From: Acidobacteriaceae bacterium
Lineage (GTDB): Bacteria; Acidobacteriota; Terriglobia; Terriglobales; Acidobacteriaceae
Length of the DNA stretch: 64,000 nt
Assembly: GCA_027452245.1 (NCBI GenBank)
Contig: DAIDGW010000094.1
Coordinates: 1 to 64,000, forward strand
Reading direction: 5' to 3'
The notes beneath the pieces are model-generated. The model was not told the DNA's origin and ran no database searches. It was given only the letters and a program-made list of their open reading frames with translations. The translations under genes and the position numbers were made by a program. Below are positions 5,866 through 18,546 of this stretch, in pieces; positions within the stretch are counted from its first letter, which is position 1, and each line of letters starts with the position of its first letter.

Positions 5866-5893
5866 TTGACAACATGGAAAAGATCACTACAAT
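5866..5893 (+). promoter_or_regulatory. Near-consensus sigma-70-type promoter for the TonB receptor
   Basis: TTGACA (5866-5871), 16-base spacer, TACAAT (5888-5893). Transcription would start near 5900, giving a leader of about 17 bases that contains the AAGGGGGGG ribosome-binding stretch ahead of GTG 5917. The -35 box begins exactly one spacer length after the last CRISPR repeat. Read directly from sequence; promoter activity is inferred. Confidence 0.7.
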
Positions 5894-5916
5894 CTAGTTT
5901 TTTTAAGGGGGGGGCC

Positions 5917-8900
5917 GTGAGGAATTTCTGCGCCTTAGGAGTTCTGCTCAGTCTTCTTTCAACATTTTGTTTTGCTCAAACCGGAACGAGTTCAATCCGC
6001 GGTACCGTTTTTGACAAATCTGGAGCAGCCGTCGCCGGGGCCAAGGTCACGATCAGCAACCCTGCCCAAGCGGTGACACGTGAGACTCAAACTAATGGCT
6101 CCGGTGAATATAGCCTTCTATCTCTTCCCCCAGGAACCTACACCCTCTTAGTCGAAAAGTCCGGCTTCCGGCCGTTTCAGCAGACAAACGTGGAGTTACT
6201 GGTGAATGTCCCGGTAACCAGCAACGTGAGCCTGGAAATTGGGACAACATCGGAAAAGGTTGAAGTTTCGGCCGAAGCTGCTTCGGTAAATACTACAGAT
6301 GCCTCGCTCGGCAATGCATTCAGCGAGACCCAGGTGAAGGAGTTGCCGCTTGAAAGCAGAAATGTTCCTGACTTGCTTAGCCTCCAGGCGGGAGTGCTTT
6401 ATACAGGGAGCAGTCCCGATATTAACGCCAGTGTCGATACACGAAGCGGAGCTGTGAACGGTGCACGCAGCGACCAAAGCAATATCAGCGTCGACGGAAT
6501 TCCAGCCAACAACAAGGGCGCGAACGCATTTACGTCCGTTCTTCCAGTTACGCTTGATTCCGTGCAGGAATTTCGTGTTACAACGACGAATTATGGCGCA
6601 GACCAGGGAGTTTCATCGGCGGCACAGGTAACTCTCATTACCAAAAGCGGAACCAATAACTTTCACGGATCCGTCTACGAATACAACAGGAACTCTTTTT
6701 TCAGCGCTAACGATTTCTTTATCAAAGCTGCCCAGGTCGGAAGCGGTGAAGCCAATAAGCCACTGCAATTGAACCGAAATATCTTTGGTGCCTCGGTTGG
6801 CGGTCCGGTTTTGAAGAACCGTTTCTATTTTTTTCTGAATTATGAGGGATACCGTTCGGCCGAAGCGACCGATGAAGAGAGGATTGTCCCGACCGCTGCC
6901 TACAAGAACGGCGTAGTTCAATATCTGTGCTTGCAAGCGGCCCCCGGGCAACTGAATACCGCACAGTGCCCCGGAAACACAGTCACCGTGAATGGCGTGA
7001 ACTACTCAGCCAGACCGGGGTACGAAGCGGTTTCGCCAATCACTCTGACCCAATGGGATGCCAAGAGCCTGGGACCACATGGTCCGGATCCCGTCGTACA
7101 GAACTTCTACAGTTCCTATCCTCTCCCCAATGACTTCACTGCGGGGGATGGATTCAATACGGCGGGGTACCGTTTCCGTGGTTCGACCCATAATCAAAAG
7201 AATTGGTACATAGGCAAACTTGATTACAATTTGACGACTGACGGTCGGCATCGGCTCTCATTAAGCGGGGCGTTGGCCAACGAGAGTCTCGCTGGTGCTC
7301 CATTTCTTCCGGGTCAGGTTCCGGAAACAACTACGGTGAACTTCAACAAGGGCCTGATTGCCAGCTATACCGCTGTCCTCTCCCCCAACCTGCTGAATAA
7401 CTTTCATTATGGTTATATACGTGAGAGTGTCGGAATCGTGGGAAATTCGAATCTGCCATGGAACTATCTCTACGCTATTGATCAAGGTGTAACCCGTTCA
7501 TCGGGATTTCAACGTCCCATACATAACTTCACGGATGATTTCTCATGGGTTCGAGGAAAACACACTTGGCAATTCGGTATGCAGGTCGCAATTCTTCGTG
7601 ATCCAGAAAGTAATCTGAATAACTCGTTCAGTATTGGAGCCGCCAATCCCAACTGGTTTATCGATTCCGGCATATCCCAGACAAATAACCCCGACCCGTT
7701 GAATCCATTGAACCAGGGGCAAGCTGCAGTAGATTCTTCCTTCACAAGCAACTACGACAACGCAGTAACCAGTTTGCTGGGAATGATTCCGCTCGGCGAT
7801 GCTATTTATAACTATAATCGCCAAGGAAATACAATTGCACAAGGAACGCCCGTCACACGGCGTTTTGCCGAAGACTCGTACGAGATGTACGGTCAGGATA
7901 CCTGGAAGCTGAACCCAAATCTCACGCTTACTTTGGGGCTGCGTTACTCGCTGTTCTCTCCACCTTGGGAGACAAATGGGTTGCAAGTAGGCCCGAACGT
8001 AGATCTGGGGAATTGGTTTGCGGCACGGCAAGCCGGAATGTATCGAGGAATTCCGTCCAGTTCACAGCCCCTCATCTCCTATAACTGGGCCGGCCCAGCG
8101 AATGGCAAAGCTGGCTACTACGGATGGGATACAAAGAACTTCGGACCGCGAGTCGCTTTCGCCTGGTCTCCTGATTCTCAGGACGGACTTCTCGGTAAGA
8201 TTTTCGGAGGACCCGGACATAGCAGTATCCGCGGTGGGTTCGGCATCGTCTACGATCGCGTGGGCGAAAACCTTGTCGACACCTTCGATCAGAACGGTTC
8301 GTTTGGATTAGCCACGCAATTGAACAATCCGTCAGCGGTGGAAAATTCGAAGATCGCTCCGCGCCTGACCAGCATGAATGCAATTCCAAAGGCCGATTAT
8401 GCGGGGAATGCGATTCTGGAACCTGCCCCGCCCGGAGGATTTCCGCAACAGTACCCGGTTGGATTAGGTGCAATCACATGGGGACTTGATCCAAACCTGA
8501 AAACGCCCTATTCCTACACAGTTGATTTTGCAGTGAGCCGCGAACTGAAGTCGAATTTCACGCTGGACGTGGCTTACGTTGGCCGGTTCTCGCACCGCCT
8601 GTTGGCGCAGGATGATCTGGCGATGCCGCTCGACATTTACGATGCGAAATCGGGACTCGATTACTTTTCTGCCGAAAAGGCCTTGGCGAAGGTATTCCGT
8701 CCGCAACTGGTTGCAGGAGTCTCGGGGATCACACAATCGTTTAATCCCAACCAGGTTTCAAAGAACGTCCAGCAGTTCTGGACTGACCAGATACAACCGC
8801 TGGCTGCAGGGGGAGCTTATACATTGAGTGGCTGTACGGGGGGAGCCACCCTGCCTACCAAGAGCCCGGTGGTCTTTGCCTTCGACCAGTTCTGTAGTAC

Positions 8901-9849
8901 TGCGTTCAATGATTCACTGGCGCTTTACCTGCTTGATTATTACGGCAGTCCTGATTACTACAATTCGAACCAGACTTATTATTTTGCCGGAGGGCAATAT
9001 TCGTACTATTCGCCACAGTTCAGCTCCCTCTATGCCTGGCGCTCCATTGCGTGGTCGAACTATAACGCGGCACAGTTCACGCTGCGGCACCGTATGTCTC
9101 ACGGCCTGCAGTTCGATTTCAACTATACCTTCTCTAAGGCTCTTGATATTTCTTCTGACGCCGAGCGCGTGGGGCCGGCCAGCAATGGCAGTTTCCTCGG
9201 TTTAAACAACAACATTATCAACGCCTGGAACCCGCGGGCCCAGTACGGTCCTGCGTCGTTCGATGCCACGCATCAGATCAACTCAAACTGGATTTACGAG
9301 CTGCCGTTCGGCCGCGGCAAAGCTTTTGCCCCCAATTCTGGATCTCTCACGGACGCATTCATCGGAGGTTGGCAGTTGTCAGGCCTGTTCCGCTGGACCA
9401 GTGGTTTCCCGGTAACAGTGGATAATGGGGTTACGAACTTTCCCACCAACTTTGAGATGGAAGGAAACGCAGACCAGATCGCCCCCGTGAAAACTGGAAA
9501 GTTCATTGTGAATGGTATTCCCAATATTTTTGCCAAAGGGCCAGCCGCAATAAGCGCATTTGCACCTGCTTACGCGGGCGAATCCGGGCAACGCAACGAA
9601 ATTCGCGGCCAGGGATATTTTGGAGTCGACATGGGGCTGGCCAAGCGCTGGCAGATGCCCTGGCAGGAGAGCCAAAGTCTGCAATTCCGATGGGAAGTTT
9701 TTAACATCACGAACACACCCATCTTCGATGTACAGTCGGCGTTGATCAAGCAAACCTTGGGACTTACCAGCGGTGGGACCTTCGGGAATTACACCGCGCT
9801 CTTGAATAACCCGCGCATCATGCAGTTTGCATTGAGATATGAGTTTTAA
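5917..9849 (+). CDS. Oar-like TonB-dependent receptor with N-terminal carboxypeptidase-regulatory-like domain
   Basis: 1310 residues from GTG 5917, chosen because a purine-rich AAGGGGGGG lies just upstream and a signal peptide follows directly (VRNFCALGVLLSLLSTFCFAQ). An earlier in-frame TTG at 5866 coincides with the -35 box of the promoter and is unlikely. Order: signal peptide (1-21), carboxypeptidase-regulatory/CNA-B-like beta domain (about 25-110; SIRGTVFDKSGAAVAGAKVTI), plug (about 135-260; ESRNVPDLLSLQAGV, NGARSDQSNISVDGIP), then a large outer-membrane barrel ending ALRYEF with a terminal aromatic. These proteins, expanded in Acidobacteriota, are thought to import large or oligomeric substrates using TonB energy. 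No substrate enzyme flanks it; the downstream gene is convergent. Confidence 0.9.
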   Translation: MRNFCALGVLLSLLSTFCFAQTGTSSIRGTVFDKSGAAVAGAKVTISNPAQAVTRETQTNGSGEYSLLSLPPGTYTLLVEKSGFRPFQQTNVELLVNVPVTSNVSLEIGTTSEKVEVSAEAASVNTTDASLGNAFSETQVKELPLESRNVPDLLSLQAGVLYTGSSPDINASVDTRSGAVNGARSDQSNISVDGIPANNKGANAFTSVLPVTLDSVQEFRVTTTNYGADQGVSSAAQVTLITKSGTNNFHGSVYEYNRNSFFSANDFFIKAAQVGSGEANKPLQLNRNIFGASVGGPVLKNRFYFFLNYEGYRSAEATDEERIVPTAAYKNGVVQYLCLQAAPGQLNTAQCPGNTVTVNGVNYSARPGYEAVSPITLTQWDAKSLGPHGPDPVVQNFYSSYPLPNDFTAGDGFNTAGYRFRGSTHNQKNWYIGKLDYNLTTDGRHRLSLSGALANESLAGAPFLPGQVPETTTVNFNKGLIASYTAVLSPNLLNNFHYGYIRESVGIVGNSNLPWNYLYAIDQGVTRSSGFQRPIHNFTDDFSWVRGKHTWQFGMQVAILRDPESNLNNSFSIGAANPNWFIDSGISQTNNPDPLNPLNQGQAAVDSSFTSNYDNAVTSLLGMIPLGDAIYNYNRQGNTIAQGTPVTRRFAEDSYEMYGQDTWKLNPNLTLTLGLRYSLFSPPWETNGLQVGPNVDLGNWFAARQAGMYRGIPSSSQPLISYNWAGPANGKAGYYGWDTKNFGPRVAFAWSPDSQDGLLGKIFGGPGHSSIRGGFGIVYDRVGENLVDTFDQNGSFGLATQLNNPSAVENSKIAPRLTSMNAIPKADYAGNAILEPAPPGGFPQQYPVGLGAITWGLDPNLKTPYSYTVDFAVSRELKSNFTLDVAYVGRFSHRLLAQDDLAMPLDIYDAKSGLDYFSAEKALAKVFRPQLVAGVSGITQSFNPNQVSKNVQQFWTDQIQPLAAGGAYTLSGCTGGATLPTKSPVVFAFDQFCSTAFNDSLALYLLDYYGSPDYYNSNQTYYFAGGQYSYYSPQFSSLYAWRSIAWSNYNAAQFTLRHRMSHGLQFDFNYTFSKALDISSDAERVGPASNGSFLGLNNNIINAWNPRAQYGPASFDATHQINSNWIYELPFGRGKAFAPNSGSLTDAFIGGWQLSGLFRWTSGFPVTVDNGVTNFPTNFEMEGNADQIAPVKTGKFIVNGIPNIFAKGPAAISAFAPAYAGESGQRNEIRGQGYFGVDMGLAKRWQMPWQESQSLQFRWEVFNITNTPIFDVQSALIKQTLGLTSGGTFGNYTALLNNPRIMQFALRYEF

Positions 9850-9959
9850 TTGAAGACTCCGATACTTCTCGATCCCTCATAATTATGGCGCGAGATTGAT
9901 ATAGAGTCTGTCTCGATACACCAATATGGCGGATAGGAGACGCCTCCACCCAAATTTGG

Positions 9960-11723
9960 CTAATACAGGGTACGTACTTCCAAGTCCAGTTTGCTGAGAC
10001 GATCCAGTTCTGCATTGACCGCCGTTTCTCCTTCTTTCTTCAACTGGCGGGCGCGGATCAAGGCCTGCTCGGCAACGCGGCTCACTTCGTGGAGCAACTT
10101 ACGTATCTCGACTTCCAGACGTCCACGACTTTCTTGAACTCGATTGAGTATGTCACTCTGTACACGCGTACTATTCGTTTCAAGCAGATGATCGAGGAAC
10201 TCAAAACCGTCGCTTTCAATTAATTTGCTGGCGCCCGCAAGTGCCAACAACAAGTCGGCGATCCAGCGCAAGGGGGAAGCTGGTTGCGCCACTTCGATGA
10301 AGTCCATGAAGCTGAATTTCGATCGGACGCAAAATCCTATTTCTGCATCAAGTGCGTGAGGCATACGGCCCAATTCTGGAATGCGGGCCTGCGAAAGTTT
10401 TCCCAGGAACTCATTGCCCATTTCTACGAATCTTCCAGCGACTTGACGATACTCCCGTTCTGCCTCTTCTTGCTCTGCATGCAGCCACGGATCAATATGC
10501 AGACGAGCAATTTCCTGAGCCTGGTGCATGATACGGCTCCGATAGGATGGCCCGAATCCAGATGGAATCGATCGCAGAGACTCCCGAAATTCGTGCCGGC
10601 TTGCGGGCAAGGCCATAGAGATGAATCTCTTATGCCGATCGACAAAAAAGTCCGAGAGCCTTTGCTGCTCCCCCGTAAATAGGAAATCAAGCTCCCGTAA
10701 CGAGCACTCTGCTTCGGCGATCGTCTGTTTCATCAGAGTTATCCGGCGTTCAGACTCCTCGATAGGTCGACGAAGTGCGTCTCGACTCTCGCTAACGACG
10801 GCCAGCAGTTGTTCGCTTAGTCGTCGTAATCCCCGGTGACAAGCAGAATGCACAAGGTGGCGTCCGGAGCCATCAACCAGTCCCTGCAGCGTGCCTGAAA
10901 GTTTGTTCCAATCACGTAATGGGCCGCGCTTCTCGGATCGTTCCTGTGCACTCACCTCGAAGATCGTGCCGACGTCGCGCTTCAAGCGTTTTTGTAGTGT
11001 CTGACGAGTAAAGGCTGCGGCTGCAGTCCGTTCTGCATCCGTTGTGCGATCGGCTTTGTTTAGCACCAGGATGAGGTCATGGACCTGCCGACCCACCGCT
11101 TCTAGCAATGTCAACTCTTCGCCGGCGAGCGGGGGATCGGCCCCAACGACAACCAAGGCAGCATCAATGTGCGGAATGAAGGCTTGCGTTGCAGCCGAAT
11201 TGCTAGCTGTAACGGAACCTAACCCTGGCGTATCGACAATACACATTCCCGAGGAAAGCAGTGAACTGGGCACAAAGACTTCTGCACCGTCCACGCATTT
11301 TCTGTTCTCCGGATTGAGTTCCTCTGTGACGTATTGTTTTAGCTCAGAAATTGGGATATCTACCCAGGATTGCTTGTTGGTGCGAATGCGCGCGTGCATA
11401 TACTCATCAAACCGGATCACGGTGGGCACGGCAGTTACGGGAATGAATCCGGTCGGTAAAACGGGTTCGCCGATGAGGGCATTGATGAGAGTGGATTTGC
11501 CTCGTTTGAACTGGCCGACGCACGCGACATAGAAGCGTCCTTCCGCGATTCGCCCTGCCAACTCTCGCGCCTCCTCAGCAACGGGCCCAGTTCCTAGAGC
11601 TTCGGCCAAAGCGGCGAGATGCAGTAATCGACTTGCCCCGTCATCCCCTTTTTCGATCACATGCGCCACAACTTGATCTTCTAGAGCGTTTGCACCCGAC
11701 GATTCATTCTCGTTGGCTTGCAC
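9960..11723 (-). CDS. Dynamin-like large GTPase
   Basis: 587 residues with a complete dynamin-type G domain: P-loop GQFKRGKS (70-77), switch Thr in PVTAVPT (95-101), DTPG (164-167) and NKAD (222-225). A long helical region follows (about 290-587) with amphipathic and coiled stretches (ALRRPIEESERRITLMK; RVQESRGRLEVEIRKLL), as expected for the stalk; one hydrophobic patch (SPLRWIADLLLALAGASKL) near residue 490 may be a membrane paddle. Bacterial dynamin-like proteins bind and remodel membranes and help with membrane stress. GTG 11723 directly follows the TAA of the DUF190 gene, so it is the last gene of the fluoride-channel operon. Its role with a fluoride exporter is unknown. Confidence 0.88.
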   Translation of the reverse strand: MQANENESSGANALEDQVVAHVIEKGDDGASRLLHLAALAEALGTGPVAEEARELAGRIAEGRFYVACVGQFKRGKSTLINALIGEPVLPTGFIPVTAVPTVIRFDEYMHARIRTNKQSWVDIPISELKQYVTEELNPENRKCVDGAEVFVPSSLLSSGMCIVDTPGLGSVTASNSAATQAFIPHIDAALVVVGADPPLAGEELTLLEAVGRQVHDLILVLNKADRTTDAERTAAAAFTRQTLQKRLKRDVGTIFEVSAQERSEKRGPLRDWNKLSGTLQGLVDGSGRHLVHSACHRGLRRLSEQLLAVVSESRDALRRPIEESERRITLMKQTIAEAECSLRELDFLFTGEQQRLSDFFVDRHKRFISMALPASRHEFRESLRSIPSGFGPSYRSRIMHQAQEIARLHIDPWLHAEQEEAEREYRQVAGRFVEMGNEFLGKLSQARIPELGRMPHALDAEIGFCVRSKFSFMDFIEVAQPASPLRWIADLLLALAGASKLIESDGFEFLDHLLETNSTRVQSDILNRVQESRGRLEVEIRKLLHEVSRVAEQALIRARQLKKEGETAVNAELDRLSKLDLEVRTLY

Positions 11724-12086
11724 TTACGGCTGAGACCTCACGCCTTCCTGATGAACGTAGCGAATCACTTCCACATCCGACATTGCGATCAGTCCTTCAT
11801 TAACCATCTGGTCCAAGGCAGGTATCAGCATTCGGATCTTCTCTTCCGTATCGATGACGCTCACCATAATGGGACGGTCCGACGAGAACAGCAGATGTCT
11901 CTTACGGATGAGCGTGCTCGCCCCGTAACCCTCAATCCCGCGAAAGACGCTGGCGCCGGCTATATCGAGTTCGCGGCACTTCATCAAAATCGCTTCGTAG
12001 AGCGGCTTGTTCTGCCATTTGTCATCCTCCCCGAAGTGAATACGCAACATCTTGGCTTTCCCTTGCAGTTTCACCTTTGCGCCCAT
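11724..12086 (-). CDS. DUF190 family protein (single domain)
   Basis: 120 residues, almost entirely one DUF190 domain: KAKMLRIHFGEDDKW, PLYEAILMKCRELDIAGASVFRGIEGYGAS, then MVSVIDTEEKIRMLIPALDQM. The fold is ferredoxin-like, related to PII/CutA-type trimeric sensors; members commonly sit beside crcB. A regulatory or sensing role is inferred; no activity is established for the family. ATG 12086 is one base after the stop of the double-DUF190 gene, and its TAA abuts the GTG of the dynamin-like gene, so the three are probably translationally coupled. Confidence 0.9.
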   Translation of the reverse strand: MGAKVKLQGKAKMLRIHFGEDDKWQNKPLYEAILMKCRELDIAGASVFRGIEGYGASTLIRKRHLLFSSDRPIMVSVIDTEEKIRMLIPALDQMVNEGLIAMSDVEVIRYVHQEGVRSQP

Positions 12087-12087
12087 T

Positions 12088-12819
12088 TCATTGCTGTGCC
12101 TCCTGGCGACGCTCCGATTGTTGATAATTGTGGGTGTACTTGATCACATCGGCATCGGAAAGCACGACCAAGCCTTGTTGCACCATCTCGTCAAGAATGG
12201 GCATGAACTTTTGTAGCTTTTCTTCGGTATCAATCACCGACAGAAGAATGGGACGATCATGAGAAAGGCTGAGTTTGGCGTCCTTGTGGATTCGCCGGTT
12301 CGCACCATATCCAAGAATGCCTCGATATACGGTCACACCTGCAATGTCGTGTGCTCTCAATCCGTTAACAATTCCTTCGTGAAGCGGTTTCCCGTTCCAT
12401 TTGTCATTCTCGCCAATGTAGATGCGCATCATTTTGGCCTTGCCTTCTCGCTTCAGCGGGGGACCTTCCCGGTTCGCTCGAGATTGTTTCTTCTCGGCTG
12501 GCTTGACGATCGTCGTGTCCTGCATTTCGATCAGGCCCGTTCCAACCATCTCGTGCAGTTTCGGCAAGAGTTCCTCGGCTTTGGCAGCCGTTTCGATAAA
12601 TTCCACTTTGACTGGGAGACGAACCGCTAGATCAACCAGTCGCGTGGTATGAAGGTGATGGTCTGCTCCGAACCCGGCTATGCCCCGGGTTACGGTTGCG
12701 CCCGATACTCCATGAAAAAATAGGAAATCCAGAATGGCTGCATAGGCAGCATTTCCGTGGTACTGCTGATCCTCAGCCACGTACGCCGCGACTTTCTTAC
12801 CTGGCCCTGGTGTAAGCAC
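12088..12819 (-). CDS. Tandem DUF190 protein (two domains)
   Basis: 243 residues from GTG 12819, chosen because GGGAGG lies 5 bases upstream; a longer frame from TTG 12876 would add 19 residues. First DUF190-like unit spans about 5-90 (AAYVAEDQQYHGNAAYAAILDFLFFHGVSGATVTRG), the second about 118-210 (KAKMMRIYIGENDKWNGKPLHEGIVNGL; GVTVYRGILGYGA). The second unit is closer to the separate single-domain protein downstream than to the first, pointing to duplication. A lysine-rich linker (PAEKKQSRANREG) joins the halves. With the next gene the operon encodes three DUF190 domains, which could build one hetero-trimer-like assembly; that is speculation. Confidence 0.88.
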   Translation of the reverse strand: MLTPGPGKKVAAYVAEDQQYHGNAAYAAILDFLFFHGVSGATVTRGIAGFGADHHLHTTRLVDLAVRLPVKVEFIETAAKAEELLPKLHEMVGTGLIEMQDTTIVKPAEKKQSRANREGPPLKREGKAKMMRIYIGENDKWNGKPLHEGIVNGLRAHDIAGVTVYRGILGYGANRRIHKDAKLSLSHDRPILLSVIDTEEKLQKFMPILDEMVQQGLVVLSDADVIKYTHNYQQSERRQEAQQ

Positions 12820-12882
12820 GTTTTCCTCCCGGTACCATCTCAACTTGCGCAGGAGAACACCTGCAGCTTCGCACAACCATCT

Positions 12883-13260
12883 TCATGGAATCGCTCTCCC
12901 GGTAACCACTCCTCCCCAGACTGCAGCGAATCCGAGTACAACGCTTGCCCCTACGTATAGGATCCCCAGACCGATCTGACCGTCCTGTACCGTCCGTAGC
13001 GTTTCGAATTCAAAGCTCGAGAAAGTCGTGTAACCCCCTATAAATCCGATTGGGATCAGATATCGCCAGTTTGCGCTCCACTGGGTCTTTGCTGTCAGCA
13101 ATGCGTAAACCAAGCCAATTAAGAACGAACCGGTCACATTGATCACAAAAGTCCCGTACGGAAAGCGGGTTCCCATCTTGCTCCCGATATAACTTCCCAA
13201 CCAGAAGCGCAGAAGGGAGCCCAAACCGCCTCCCACCCCGACCATAACGTATTTCAGCAA
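12883..13260 (-). CDS. crcB: CrcB/Fluc fluoride channel
   Basis: 125 residues, four predicted membrane helices. Family signatures: VGVGGGLGSLLRF at the N-terminus, YGTFVINVTGSFLIG (pore Asn and GT motif) and GGYTTFSSFEFET (the TTFSSF motif with the phenylalanine-lined pore). CrcB dimers pass fluoride passively out of the cytoplasm and protect enolase and pyrophosphatase. Start TTG 13260 gives the usual LLKYVMVGVGGG N-terminus and has AGAGAGGGA about 10 bases upstream; an ATG five codons in would cut the first helix. It follows a helical protein gene by 58 bases and precedes the DUF190 genes. No fluoride riboswitch is evident in that gap. Confidence 0.95.
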   Translation of the reverse strand: MLKYVMVGVGGGLGSLLRFWLGSYIGSKMGTRFPYGTFVINVTGSFLIGLVYALLTAKTQWSANWRYLIPIGFIGGYTTFSSFEFETLRTVQDGQIGLGILYVGASVVLGFAAVWGGVVTGRAIP

Positions 13261-13318
13261 GCGGATCTTTTCCCTCTCTTATCTTATTCAAACCGGGCGC
13301 TATGCCAACGCACCACGA

Positions 13319-13828
13319 TCACGAAGCCATTTCGTTTTTCGAGTCTCCCCCGGCTTTCATCTTATCGAGGTGGTCCTGCAGTTTTTCCCTTGATTGGATC
13401 AAGTAACGATCGAGTTGCCGCACCAGCCCTTGCAATTCGGCGGCAATGCCGTTCAGTTCCTCCGCGGCGGTCCTTGGCAGTTCGCCATAACCTCGCATGT
13501 GTTCGGGCTTGAGTTCTTCGGCCGCGATATCGATAAAAGTCAAATTTGCATGCAATAGCCGCGAAACCGGAATGTCAGCAGGACGGCGCTCGATATACTG
13601 GCCATCGAGAGTTCGGAGCAATTGGGTGCGTATCCGGAATATGTACTCTTCAATCACTCGTGTTTGTGCCGGCAATATGTCCAAAGCGTAGTGTGGGAAG
13701 GCGCGCTTTGAACTCGAAATGTTCAGGGATGCCTCGATGTCGGCGAGCAGCTTATCGATATAACGGCAGGTGGTGCTGAGTCGCCGTTCGTGATTCGAAT
13801 TTAACGGATTGTTTTTTTCTTCTATCAA
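13319..13828 (-). CDS. Uncharacterised helical protein in the fluoride operon
   Basis: 169 residues, no family recognised. It is strongly helical and soluble: RRLSTTCRYIDKLLADIEASL, then ILPAQTRVIEEYIFRIRTQLLRTL, RLLHANLTFIDIAAEELK and a C-terminal amphipathic helix (ELQGLVRQLDRYLIQSREKLQDHLDKM). The layout suggests a four-helix bundle or adaptor. Start TTG 13828 is 11 bases after the stop of the AAA ATPase gene and has no good Shine-Dalgarno, so coupling to the upstream gene is likely. Position between an ATPase and the fluoride channel suggests it links the two, but nothing in the sequence shows this. Confidence 0.7.
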   Translation of the reverse strand: MIEEKNNPLNSNHERRLSTTCRYIDKLLADIEASLNISSSKRAFPHYALDILPAQTRVIEEYIFRIRTQLLRTLDGQYIERRPADIPVSRLLHANLTFIDIAAEELKPEHMRGYGELPRTAAEELNGIAAELQGLVRQLDRYLIQSREKLQDHLDKMKAGGDSKNEMAS

Positions 13829-13839
13829 GGCGCTATTCG

Positions 13840-14595
13840 CTACCTGTGGGCGTTCCCGCTCATACGGAAGTCGATATATAGCGGGGTGATCTTGATGTTT
13901 TCCTGCGAGCGATACTTCGGGTATCGAGCCATGTCGATTAATGCAATCATGGTTCTAGGATTTCCAGCACTGAACTCTAAAATCCTCTCTAGGAATTCGC
14001 CGACATTCGTGCCTGAAAGCTCGCGGCGCCGGATCATTTCGCGAGCAAATTGCGCCGCAGCGGCATCCTCGAAATTGTGGATCTCGCATTTCTGCGACCG
14101 GCCTGCGTAGAGCGGCTGCAGAAATCCCGTATCCTCCATGTGGGCAGAGCGCGCGACTGCGCTCACCGGTGTTGATCCCCATCCCATGATCTCGCGCATC
14201 GCTGAGGCAAAGGTGTATGAAGGACGCTTGAGATGATCCAGAATGATGGAATACTCGCCTTCACGGAGTGCATCTATAACAATGCCTTTCAAAGAAACTG
14301 CGGACTTGCTGGCGATCGCCGCCTCATCGCGAAACGCTTTGCCGGCGCGTGCATTCTTCATCCTCAACAAGTTAACTGCCAGGCTGCGCAAAACTGCATT
14401 CGTCGTCGACGAATCTGCGCAATATAGAACTGACTGAAATGGACGAAGCGCACTGCGGACGAGCAGAGTTTTCCCTACTCCAGCCGGACCACAGAGCAGA
14501 AACGGGTGCCTTTTGCAAAGAAACTGGTCGATTCGCTGCCGCTCCTGTTCGCGATCGAATATAGGCTCATCAGATATTGAGGCTCCTTTTTTCAA
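13840..14595 (-). CDS. AAA-type ATPase (Orc/STAND-like) at the head of the fluoride operon
   Basis: 251 residues. Walker A GPAGVGKT (36-43) after the entry motif IFDREQERQRIDQFL, which is typical of Orc1/STAND-type ATPases; Walker B-like hydrophobic run SIILDH (116-121) has His instead of the usual acidic residue after the Asp; VSAVARSAHMED could be sensor 1. The C-terminal part (FAREMIRRRELSG, ILEFSAGNPRTMIALIDMA) matches the lid helices of that group. It has no transmembrane segment or DNA-binding domain. Start TTG 14595 is weak; no in-frame ATG exists near the N-terminus. It is the first gene of the run leading to CrcB, DUF190 proteins and the dynamin-like GTPase. Confidence 0.75.
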   Translation of the reverse strand: MKKGASISDEPIFDREQERQRIDQFLCKRHPFLLCGPAGVGKTLLVRSALRPFQSVLYCADSSTTNAVLRSLAVNLLRMKNARAGKAFRDEAAIASKSAVSLKGIVIDALREGEYSIILDHLKRPSYTFASAMREIMGWGSTPVSAVARSAHMEDTGFLQPLYAGRSQKCEIHNFEDAAAAQFAREMIRRRELSGTNVGEFLERILEFSAGNPRTMIALIDMARYPKYRSQENIKITPLYIDFRMSGNAHR

Positions 14596-14862
14596 TTCAG
14601 CCAGTTCCCTTTACCACTGCCGGACTTCAAACAGGCATCCGCGACTAAAGTTGCGCATGCGCAAGTTAGACGTTTTCTTCTGGCGGATTTTGCCGGGAAC
14701 AGACTCCCAGACAAGTCCCGCTTGTCAGGAGTCATCAGCTGTGCCCGGCTAAAGGAAGGGACAGCGGTTTCGGTGAACTCCTTCACCGTCGATCACGATT
14801 CCAGTACAGCAAAGGCCAACGCCAATGTCAACGAATTTTGCGTTTTGCCACGATTCGGCGCT
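14596..14862. promoter_or_regulatory. Upstream region of the fluoride/dynamin operon with a 14-bp palindrome
   Basis: The region between the truncated peptidase stop and the AAA ATPase start should carry the operon promoter on the minus strand. It holds a perfect palindrome TTGCGCATGCGCAA at 14651-14664, about 55 bases upstream of the ATPase start, well placed for an operator. I see no clear -35/-10 pair and no gene; a 64-codon open frame here has no coding character. Confidence 0.4.
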
Positions 14863-15609
14863 TCATGGCTTATTCACGTCTACGTAGTACAGATCGGTTG
14901 CCACTTGAAACTTGTCTTTTGCCAGAGAACTCTGCATCCACTGCCATTTCTGGGTGGGGTGGATAACCTGCCAATGATCAGGCGAAGCCACGCTCACCGG
15001 CGTGGAGAAGCTCTTCTCATCGGCGCTCCACTTATACATCACCATCCCTGGCGCCTCACTGAACAAAAGCTCCAAACGCGGAATCTGCGCGTGCCGCAAG
15101 TATTGGTTGAAGACCGGTGTCAGATTCATCCCGGTGTGCTGGTTGAAGTACAGAACCACATCTTCTGTCGTAATGTTCTGATATTTGAAGCGCTGGTAGA
15201 AGTTGTAGAGCAGTCTCCACCACTTCGCATCATTGTGCACAACACTGCGCAGAGTGTTCAGCATCAACGCGCCCTTGAAGTATTGGTCTTCTGTCGGTTC
15301 TGCATTCACGCCCGTCTCTGCAATGATCGGGCGTAGGTTATATATCTTCGGTCTATAGCCGCTGAGATATTTGATTGCATCCGCTTTGCCCCAACGATAT
15401 TCCACATAGAGGCTCTCCAGGTAAGTCGCCCACCCCTCGTGAATCCACATGTCTGCAGGATCGGCCGCCGTGACGCTGTTGCCAAACCATTCGTGCGCGC
15501 TCTCATGAATGATGATGAAATCGAATCGCGGGCTGATGCCTACACCGACGTAGATTCTGTCAGAGGAGTTGGTTCGCGCGATGAATGCTATCGGGTCAAG
15601 TATGGACAT
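14863..15609 (-). pseudogene. M1-family metallopeptidase, N-terminal domain missing
   Basis: 248 codons with the catalytic half of an M1 peptidase: zinc motif HESAH at FIIIHESAHEWFGNS and the third ligand Glu in WIHEGWATYLE, both intact, followed by the helical region (DQYFKGALMLNTLRSVV, NQHTGMNLTPVFNQYLRHAQIP) and a C-terminal beta part. M1 enzymes normally carry about 200-300 residues of N-terminal beta domain before this point, including the GAMEN substrate motif; here homology stops about 30 residues before HESAH and the TonB receptor ends just 39 bases upstream. No N-terminal fragment is found nearby. Probably a remnant after deletion or recombination; a functional short protease is possible but unlikely. 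Confidence 0.75.
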
Positions 15610-15648: not shown

Positions 15649-18546
15649 CTAGAAAATGAACTTCACTTGAAATTCCATGCGGCGATTGTTGGCCGACTCC
15701 AGAAAGCCGGTTCCGCCCAGGCTTGCCGCGCCGGCACTCTGATTGGCGCGTCCAAAAAACGGCGACGTGATATCGCCGATAATGGGCCCCGGATTATCGT
15801 GGTTGATGATGTTGCGGATCGAGGCATTGAGCGAGATCGTGTAGCGATGTTCCTCCGAGCCACTTCTCTTTGACCCTCCCGACTGCGCGACTTCTGAGGC
15901 CGGAGCTCGTCCGAACTCGAATAGCTTCGTCAGACCAAGGTTGACCATCACATAGCCGGGCCCTCGCCCCGAATTTCGTGGAAGCGTGGGTTCATTGGCG
16001 GCCGGATTCGGATCCAGCAAACCATACTGGGTCTGAATTAATCCCGCCTTATTGGGATTCGAAGGAATCCCGGGCCGGGCATTGAATAGCGTGTCGCCAT
16101 AGATGTCACTGCCGGCCGTAATGTCAAAGGGTGGGCCGGAATAGATTCTCACCATCGGTGCGATCCGAAGATTCCATCGTTCGAAACTTCCTCCAAATAC
16201 GAACGAGTTTCGTATATCTGTAATTGCGGGTCCATACTCCCCGGCGAAGTTATAAGGATTCGCCGGGACGGTAATCAGTCCATCCGTATTGCTTAGCGCC
16301 CGGTTCAACGTGTAGTTGGAGAAAAAAGAAATCTCCGAGGTGACCTTCGAATTCACGTTCAGAATCAGCTGGTTCTGGTTGTACAGCCCATCGGAGGCCA
16401 TCTGGAAGACGGGCGCATTAAAGCCCAGCGGGAAGACACCGCTGCCCGGAATCGCCGGATCGAAAGTTCCGGGCAAGGGCGCATTCACATCCAATGTACG
16501 CAGTTGGTGCAGTCCGTGAGAATTGGTGTAAGTGACCGCCAGCGTCGTATGGGGCGCCAGTTCCCGCTCGATTGTTATAGCTGATTGCAGGATCGAAGGC
16601 GCCCGCAGCGAAGGACTGATCTCCTGAACTGCGGATGGCACGGTAATGCTAGGGGCACTGGGAAACGAATTCGGGTTGTCGACAACGTACTGCTGTTGAA
16701 TCGTGCCATTGAACCTTCTCGCAGCAATCACGTTCGCCAGTGCGAAGCGATCATAGAAGATCCCAAAGCCAGCTCGGATCACAAACTTCGATTTTCCACC
16801 GGGCTGCCACGCCAGGCCTAAACGCGGTGCAAAATCCGCCAGATCACCGATGTTCGTCTGCCATTCATACCGAAAACCCGGACTCAGGACCAGCCGCGGA
16901 GTAATGTGCCATTCGTCTCCAAAGAATGCCCCAATATCCGTCTGGTTCCCGTATATGTCAGGGAATCCAGCATAAGCCGAATACTGGGTTGCTCCTCCTC
17001 CTAACGCTTGAATCTGGGCGGGAGTGTCGCCCAGGTCTTGGAAGAGCAGCGTTCGACGGTAGACCTCGATGGACTGCAGAGGGATAAGAACAGGATTGCC
17101 GGAACCATTCAAAACCGGCTGGTTGTTCGGACCCAATTCCGGACCAATCCGGCCACCGAAGGTGAATGTCCCCCCAAAATTTGCCCGTGAACTGTTGTTA
17201 TCCCCGGCTTGTCGAACTCTAACCCCAAAATGAAATGTGTGCGTGTTATGAATGATCGTGGTGTAATTCTGGATCTCGTAATTGTTCTGCGCGTCGTATA
17301 CAGGCCCGAGTTGCGATCCGCCTCCATTGAACGCTCCCAGAACTTGGATCTGAGAACCGGGCGTGTTCGGCACCGTTGAGTTCACCATGCGAAAAAATTG
17401 GAATCGGGCTTCGTTCACCATGTTGCTGCCGATCGTGGCTGTCTCACTCGCCTGGAAAGTACTGCTGAAGTAATGCACATAATTCGAGAGCGACACGAGA
17501 TTGAGGCTGCCTATGCCGGAGTCGCTAATGTTCGCGTCTTCCACCCGATAACGGAAAGAGAGCGCATGATTTGCATTCACCTGATAGTCAAGGCGCGGTG
17601 AAACAATGATGCGCCTCTGCGGAACGCTAAACACATCAGTGAAAGGCATTATCGCAAGTGTCTGCGGATCGAGGGTCACAGTGTCAATATTCGCGCCGTT
17701 ATCAATCGCAGCGCCGCCTATATTCACAAAGAAGGATAGTTTTCGATTGATTGGCCCGCTCAAACTTCCACCGTATTCGCGAAGCAAGAATGGGGCCTTC
17801 TGTTGCGTGTACGGATCACGGGAATTCCAGACACTATCCCCGACATTGAAATATGTCAGACCGTGATATTGATCAGTGCCGGCCTTTGTCGTGACCTCGA
17901 TCCGTCCATAACCTAGTTTGTCGTACTCGGGAGAAAAAGGGTTCTGGTTGATCTTCACCTGCGCGATTGACTCTTTTGTGGGGAGATCACCGGTACTGAA
18001 CCCATCCACGTAGAGCGCGCCGCCGCTTGGTCCCGCCGACGGTCCGGCCAGCGCCTCCAGATCAGTTGCCAGATCTTCCTGGCTGTTCCCCAGAGATTCC
18101 AGATCGTTTCCTTGCAGCACAATGGAACTGGCATTGCTGCTGCTCTCCGGACTCAGTGCGGGGCCCTCTTGACCCTCCACGTTAACATTCTGGTTTTCTG
18201 CCTGGACCCTGAGCTTCAGATCGACTTTCTCAAACCCTCCCGGCACGTTTACTGCTACGCCTTGCGGAAGAGCCAAATCTGGCGCGAATGCCTGCAGCGT
18301 GTAGGTTCCGGAGGGAATCCGAGTGAATGAATATGTCCCGTTCTTGTCAGACAGCGTTGTGCGCGCGGTGCCCGAGGCACTGGTCAACGTGACAGTTGCT
18401 TTCGGCACAACCGCCCCGCTGGGATCCGTGACCGTGCCGTGAATGGAACCGGTCTGCGCGAGTCCCGCGCCTGCGCCAATAGCGGACAGCACAACCAGAA
18501 TGACCATCGAACGAGAGAGGGAGGGCTTCACAGGGCTCGAACCCAC
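15649..18546 (-). CDS. Oar-like TonB-dependent receptor with carboxypeptidase-regulatory-like domain
   Basis: 965 residues. Signal peptide (about 14-31; MVILVVLSAIGAGAGLAQ), carboxypeptidase-regulatory-like beta domain (about 33-110; GSIHGTVTDPSGAVVPKATVTL), shortened plug region (about 135-220; GGALYVDGFSTGDLPTKESIAQV), then a beta-barrel (EFQVKFIF terminus ending in Phe). It is some 350 residues shorter than the receptor at 5.9 kb and not closely alike. GTG 18546 is the longest start; ATG 18507, at the signal peptide, is an alternative. It is divergent from the arsenic operon and followed by the truncated peptidase on the same strand, perhaps once a receptor-protease pair for peptides. Confidence 0.87.
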   Translation of the reverse strand: MGSSPVKPSLSRSMVILVVLSAIGAGAGLAQTGSIHGTVTDPSGAVVPKATVTLTSASGTARTTLSDKNGTYSFTRIPSGTYTLQAFAPDLALPQGVAVNVPGGFEKVDLKLRVQAENQNVNVEGQEGPALSPESSSNASSIVLQGNDLESLGNSQEDLATDLEALAGPSAGPSGGALYVDGFSTGDLPTKESIAQVKINQNPFSPEYDKLGYGRIEVTTKAGTDQYHGLTYFNVGDSVWNSRDPYTQQKAPFLLREYGGSLSGPINRKLSFFVNIGGAAIDNGANIDTVTLDPQTLAIMPFTDVFSVPQRRIIVSPRLDYQVNANHALSFRYRVEDANISDSGIGSLNLVSLSNYVHYFSSTFQASETATIGSNMVNEARFQFFRMVNSTVPNTPGSQIQVLGAFNGGGSQLGPVYDAQNNYEIQNYTTIIHNTHTFHFGVRVRQAGDNNSSRANFGGTFTFGGRIGPELGPNNQPVLNGSGNPVLIPLQSIEVYRRTLLFQDLGDTPAQIQALGGGATQYSAYAGFPDIYGNQTDIGAFFGDEWHITPRLVLSPGFRYEWQTNIGDLADFAPRLGLAWQPGGKSKFVIRAGFGIFYDRFALANVIAARRFNGTIQQQYVVDNPNSFPSAPSITVPSAVQEISPSLRAPSILQSAITIERELAPHTTLAVTYTNSHGLHQLRTLDVNAPLPGTFDPAIPGSGVFPLGFNAPVFQMASDGLYNQNQLILNVNSKVTSEISFFSNYTLNRALSNTDGLITVPANPYNFAGEYGPAITDIRNSFVFGGSFERWNLRIAPMVRIYSGPPFDITAGSDIYGDTLFNARPGIPSNPNKAGLIQTQYGLLDPNPAANEPTLPRNSGRGPGYVMVNLGLTKLFEFGRAPASEVAQSGGSKRSGSEEHRYTISLNASIRNIINHDNPGPIIGDITSPFFGRANQSAGAASLGGTGFLESANNRRMEFQVKFIF

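Follow-up and report, generated by a model that had tools for sequence, protein, structure and literature searches.

In a 64,000-nucleotide stretch of an Acidobacteriaceae genome (contig DAIDGW010000094.1, positions 1 to 64,000; here called the window), a dynamin-like GTPase, DLP2, and a CrcB fluoride channel are encoded in a run of six minus-strand genes headed by a fluoride riboswitch. The riboswitch (RF01734) sits a short way 5' of the first gene, so the six genes very probably form one fluoride-induced operon. Its demonstrable sensor is an RNA, where the original prediction had proposed DUF190. The parts belong to known families; judged by the literature searched, what is new is a dynamin module under fluoride-riboswitch control. 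No report of a fluoride riboswitch or crcB together with a dynamin was found in that literature, which included few subscription journals. We think it fairly probable that this is a fluoride-resistance operon in which export through CrcB is combined with a DLP2/helical-partner function that would keep the inner membrane tight or repaired. The features are listed from the 5' end of the minus strand:

14803 to 14831, minus strand: predicted sigma-70-like promoter TTGACA-17-TGTACT, read from the sequence
14719 to 14796, minus strand: fluoride riboswitch aptamer RF01734 (cmscan 41.7 bits, gathering threshold 34, E 3.6e-8 in the window)
14702 to 14733, minus strand: putative expression platform, anti-aptamer hairpin GACTCCTGACAAG-CGGGA-CTTGTCTGGGAGTC (predicted fold)
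13840 to 14595, minus strand: AAA/STAND-like P-loop ATPase, 251 residues (open reading frame, Pfam, orthologue motifs)
13319 to 13828, minus strand: helical protein, 169 residues, the N-terminal domain of a deleted dynamin-like protein, DLP1 (comparison with relatives)
12883 to 13260, minus strand: CrcB/Fluc fluoride channel, 125 residues (PF02537, TIGR00494)
12088 to 12876, minus strand: double DUF190 protein, P-II-like, likely start 12819 (PF02641, two stretches)
11724 to 12086, minus strand: single DUF190 protein, 120 residues (PF02641)
9960 to 11723, minus strand: dynamin-like GTPase DLP2, 587 residues (PF00350, G motifs, structure model)

All six reading frames at 9960-14595 are present with the domains named in the original prediction, and its gene layout is confirmed by the open reading frames and Pfam. 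From the GTPase to the ATPase gene the gaps are 0, 1, 63, 58 and 11 bases, the third being 63 only if the double DUF190 protein starts at 12819; when the longest reading frame is taken instead, its gap to CrcB is 6 bases. The start at 12819 gives a protein of 243 residues, the length seen in relatives. CrcB belongs to its family by matches to PF02537 (99 bits) and, over residues 6-118, to TIGR00494 (98.1 bits, cut-off 80.45). The single and double DUF190 proteins both score far above the PF02641 cut-off of 23.4 (111 bits, and 209.5 bits in two copies); the double protein also matches the P-II profile in Pfam, and its relatives with solved structures are PH1503 and TM0021. The ATPase only comes near AAA_16 in Pfam, at 30.7 bits just under the cut-off of 32.6, and its orthologues keep a Walker A motif (GPxGVGKT), LDHL with an invariant D120, and HMED.

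The aptamer is assigned to RF01734 by a covariance-model score over the curated threshold and by its position, 123 nucleotides 5' of the ATPase start codon on the same strand as the six genes. Transcription would start at about the first aptamer base from the TTGACA-17-TGTACT site, which is unlisted by our promoter scan because the scan requires an A at the second position of the -10 element. Fold prediction has the aptamer 3' strand GACTCC pairing alternatively with GGGAGTC in a strong hairpin, exclusive with the aptamer. Of 71 riboswitch leaders from related genomes, 39 have GGAGT after ACTCC, where shuffled sequences would give 5.4. In many leaders the loop of this hairpin has its complement in a segment 20-30 nucleotides further downstream (GCGGAT/ATCCGC, GAGGG/CCCTC). 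Over window positions 14690-14733 and the leaders in loci L028-L047 and L078-L133, the mean complement is 4.46; permuted sequences give 4.02, and at most 4.41 in 500 permutations. Because the sequences are related to each other, this is no more than suggestive of a pseudoknot in the leader.

Both the conservation of the locus and its link to the riboswitch are well supported. The helical protein occurs in 21 of 61 near relatives, in 24 of 396 genomes sampled across Acidobacteriota, and in 41 loci of named genomes, all of them metagenome-assembled and all from Acidobacteria or its subgroups (Sulfotelmatobacter, Acidobacteriaceae, Silvibacterium and others). The recurring plan consists of the riboswitch, a Na+/H+ antiporter, UspA and sometimes enolase, the AAA ATPase, a helical-domain dynamin, CrcB, the double and the single DUF190 proteins and a second dynamin, sometimes with a MutS-like pair near by. 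Counting informative loci only, a same-strand riboswitch is found at most 6 kb upstream in 34 of 38, CrcB in 25 of 36, DUF190 in 29 of 34 and the second dynamin downstream in 23 of 30. Only 17 of 39 loci have the ATPase gene directly upstream of the helical gene; several more have it on the downstream side. In stretches fetched from deep lineages the same parts occur together but reordered, and 17 of 20 helical-domain loci have the riboswitch. The original prediction had made the idea of one system depend on a gene order conserved outside this genome, and the layout does recur in many genomes. A single fluoride-linked unit is thus strongly supported by the conserved gene set, the phylum-wide recurrence and the riboswitch at the head, an element absent from that first account of the locus. 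In one relative (L046), a 266-residue reading frame at 10350-11150 on the minus strand comes right after the fluoride riboswitch; it has a DUF190 match at its end and overlaps a CrcB match at 10721-11092, and a helical-domain relative comes next.

The link between riboswitch and dynamin can be viewed across the phylum, as the DLP2 profile and RF01734 were both searched in the same 396 Acidobacteriota genomes. A same-strand riboswitch lies no more than 6 kb 5' of 34 of the 42 DLP2 matches at E 1e-40 or better, and for 21 of these the distance is at most 300 nucleotides, whereas none of the 22 weaker dynamin matches lies behind one (Fisher 7e-11); the threshold was chosen after the list, which has a gap between 1e-42 and 1e-32, had been inspected, some rows of the profile derive from riboswitch loci, and the riboswitch listing omitted the weakest matches. 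Despite these caveats the contrast between close DLP2 relatives and other dynamins is very large. The riboswitch-linked dynamins form their own clade rather than being copies of a housekeeping dynamin, and the genomes that carry them span 15 family codes. Outside the phylum, the sole plasmid match is a dynamin on a plasmid of Lichenicola cladoniae (Alphaproteobacteria), which is oriented divergently to riboswitch-crcB-Usp; another Usp gene and a Na+/H+ antiporter lie near by. With slightly less than even probability, DLP2 may be a dedicated fluoride dynamin: an old clade under the fluoride riboswitches of Acidobacteriota, present by crcB in at least one alphaproteobacterium, that could serve in membrane sealing, repair or channel organisation under fluoride/hydrogen fluoride (HF) stress and whose previously unnamed helical partner domain can outlive its own GTPase domain.

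DLP2 belongs to the dynamin superfamily by sequence and model. It matches Dynamin_N (PF00350, 96 bits), carries G1 GQFKRGKS, G3 DTPG and G4 NKAD, and is modelled (pLDDT, predicted local distance difference test, 80) as a GTPase domain with a long helical stalk; the nearest solved folds are IniA, BDLP and Cj-DLP2. The top structural matches, BDLP1, IniA and mitofusin/Fzo1, share this architecture, but identity is low (16-24%) and regulation and partners differ. The Campylobacter pair Cj-DLP1/Cj-DLP2 (5OWV, PMC6104087), among the best PDB sequence matches, resembles relatives of the window locus in two ways: these have two side-by-side dynamin-like genes, and one such gene has an N-terminal helical extension before the GTPase domain. 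In Campylobacter the N-terminal domain of Cj-DLP1 binds Cj-DLP2 (PMC6104087). Unlike that pair, the extended partner in the window has lost its GTPase domain, and the locus is predicted to be under fluoride control. The helical domain has no sequence match to the Cj-DLP1 assembly domain, and structure alignments hardly cover its residues 1-160.

The 169-residue helical protein has no meaningful family match in Pfam, NCBIfam or PADLOC, and a search of viral contigs gave no relative of its domain. Most near relatives carry it as the N-terminus of DLP1, of about 690 residues. For the DLP1 model (L098, pLDDT 77) the best alignments, which begin at residue 160, are those with mitofusin 1 and Fzo1, at Z of about 25; residues 1-160 are hardly covered. 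On the tree, the window protein is sister to a fused DLP1 (support 90/86), and the helical domain switches between fused and solo states at least six times. The 3' end of the window gene (its last codons, the stop and the bases after it, ATGGCTTCGTGA...) matches that of the fused L098 gene with an alignment score of 66, against a shuffled maximum of 32. An in-frame internal deletion has thus taken out the DLP1 GTPase domain and stalk while the last codons were kept. We therefore rejected an independent new gene in the window genome, given the relatives, the tree and the 3'-end alignment. The gene described in the original prediction does exist, but as the leftover domain of a second dynamin-like protein and not as a separate novelty. 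The window genome has one clear Dynamin_N gene, that of DLP2, its remaining matches being weak and split; side-by-side pairs of GTPase-bearing dynamins are found in relatives. Since the helical domain survives loss of the GTPase part and commonly stands alone in deep lineages, it arguably has a separate task, the simplest being that of a partner of DLP2 or of the ATPase.

Two relatives show other rearrangements of these parts. In L042 (genome G014), at about 9300-10700, a deletion joins the coding region of the first 60 or so helical-domain residues to the rear half of DLP2, having taken out the GTPase domain, CrcB and DUF190. In L111 (9239-11551), DLP2 rather than the DLP1 GTPase carries the helical domain, in a fusion protein of 770 residues.

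How such an operon might work can be sketched as follows. HF would enter the cell at low external pH and dissociate; fluoride and Mg would then bind the aptamer and block the anti-aptamer hairpin, so that the six-gene transcript is made. CrcB would let fluoride out passively with the membrane potential as driver, probably tuned by the P-II-like DUF190 proteins. DLP2 would assemble on the inner membrane and tether, seal or remodel it, keeping the potential up and the leak low while fluoride is expelled; the helical domain and the ATPase would act as its partners in assembly or regulation. As CrcB is a passive channel driven by the membrane potential (PMC11139923), export of fluoride requires a tight inner membrane, and membrane tethering and protection under stress are known functions of bacterial dynamins (PMC6104087, PMC8844932); for these two reasons, fluoride-induced export with membrane maintenance is the most economical reading. 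It also agrees with known regulons of the fluoride riboswitch (crcB motif), which have RF01734 upstream and CrcB: in relatives of the window locus, the operon also takes in genes for an antiporter, UspA, enolase and MutS-like proteins, as in those regulons (PMC11139923, PMC2864571). Unlike them, the window operon adds the dynamin-like GTPase, the helical partner domain and the AAA ATPase. That riboswitch and dynamin recur together across the whole phylum of these acid-soil bacteria suggests that membrane integrity is an unrecognised part of fluoride resistance.

Several observations weigh against this reading. DLP2 has no transmembrane segment and its tip is poorly modelled, so that its contact with the membrane is putative. 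A U-run (TTTT), as an intrinsic-terminator platform would have, follows just 2 of the 39 anti-aptamer hairpins, and in the window leader the aptamer hairpin is enlarged and the score middling. Finally, 57 genomes have any DLP2-profile match and 133 have the riboswitch; as this dynamin is absent from most Acidobacteriota genomes with a fluoride riboswitch, it is no general requirement.

Other explanations were weighed against export with membrane maintenance, and the next two are possible but less supported. The first is target replacement, in which the GTPase and ATPase are made in surplus to offset the blocking of phosphoryl-transfer enzymes by fluoride in the form of AlFx or MgFx, as has been suggested for enolase and pyrophosphatase. 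The dynamin would then have a general envelope task that has to go on. Enolase does occur in the same operons, fluoride-sensitive enzymes are already known as riboswitch targets, and dynamin-like proteins bind GDP-AlF4 in crystals; but the window genome has no second clear Dynamin_N gene to be the normal enzyme, and the linked dynamins are a clade of their own and not copies of a housekeeping one. We rate this explanation as unlikely. Rather less likely still is a dynamin that is itself fluoride-responsive: fluoroaluminate in acid soil would trap the GDP state and trigger or lock assembly, so that the protein itself would be a second sensor, acting on the membrane or clustering CrcB. Direct riboswitch control, the operon shared with crcB and the existing GDP-AlF4 complexes of bacterial dynamins fit this idea, but AlFx binding is common to many GTPases.

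The original prediction also offered a defence module using ion leakage, here against phage and related to the Leo/Eleos dynamins, and we find this very improbable. Leo/Eleos (LeoA, LeoBC) share the dynamin GTPase family and the paired genes seen in relatives of the window locus, and Bacillus DynA limits phage spread (PMC8844932). The PADLOC matches, however, are weak, generic and partial (LeoA 49 bits, LeoBC 21 bits), the window genome has a single Dynamin_N protein, and the control element and partners are throughout of the fluoride-regulon type. Moreover, viral contigs hold no relatives, and the spread is vertical and phylum-wide in a conserved context, unlike defence-island scatter. With such weak PADLOC matches, a defence system was rejected as the principal explanation. 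Chance adjacency of a crcB operon and an unrelated dynamin gene, for which the 58-63 base gaps flanking crcB would be wide enough to hold promoters of their own and a promoter scan gives one weak promoter-like site at 13281-13308, is hardly credible, being contradicted by the layout recurring in many genomes and by the riboswitch-dynamin link in 15 family codes.

The fluoride regulon is wider in some relatives, where 10 to 21 fluoride riboswitches are found per genome, often as divergent pairs. Such very large regulons occur in G005 (L078-L081, L029), G006 (L082-L084), G009 (L085, L086) and G033 (L087-L089). Behind or beside these riboswitches are a third dynamin, MutS-like pairs, a DnaB-like ATPase, Hsp70, a UvrD-type helicase, S-adenosylmethionine synthetase, enolase, a major facilitator superfamily transporter, NADHdh/Mrp-type subunits and cyclopropane fatty-acid synthase, the last on a riboswitch-rich contig of one relative. 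Known fluoride-riboswitch genes include those for antiporters, enolase, MutS and formate hydrogenlyase (PMC2864571, PMC11139923). Cyclopropane synthase together with dynamins would point to the membrane.

The published picture of fluoride resistance is one of export together with adjustments of pH, ions and metabolism (PMC11139923). If the GTPase acts as we infer, a membrane-remodelling enzyme under a fluoride riboswitch adds a membrane arm to this picture, and bacterial dynamins, whose physiological triggers are mostly unknown, gain a defined inducer, one that need only be put into the culture medium. The unnamed helical family and the ATPase family would be marked as fluoride-response proteins, and such families may help work on organofluorine-degrading strains.

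Around the operon, a 248-residue M1-peptidase-like fragment lies directly 5' of the riboswitch (14863-15609, minus strand); it covers only the end of the Pfam domain and looks like a truncated gene. Large outer-membrane-type proteins flank the operon at 5866-9849 (plus strand) and 15649-18546 (minus strand), both with N-terminal carboxypeptidase-regulatory-like repeats as judged on sequence alone.

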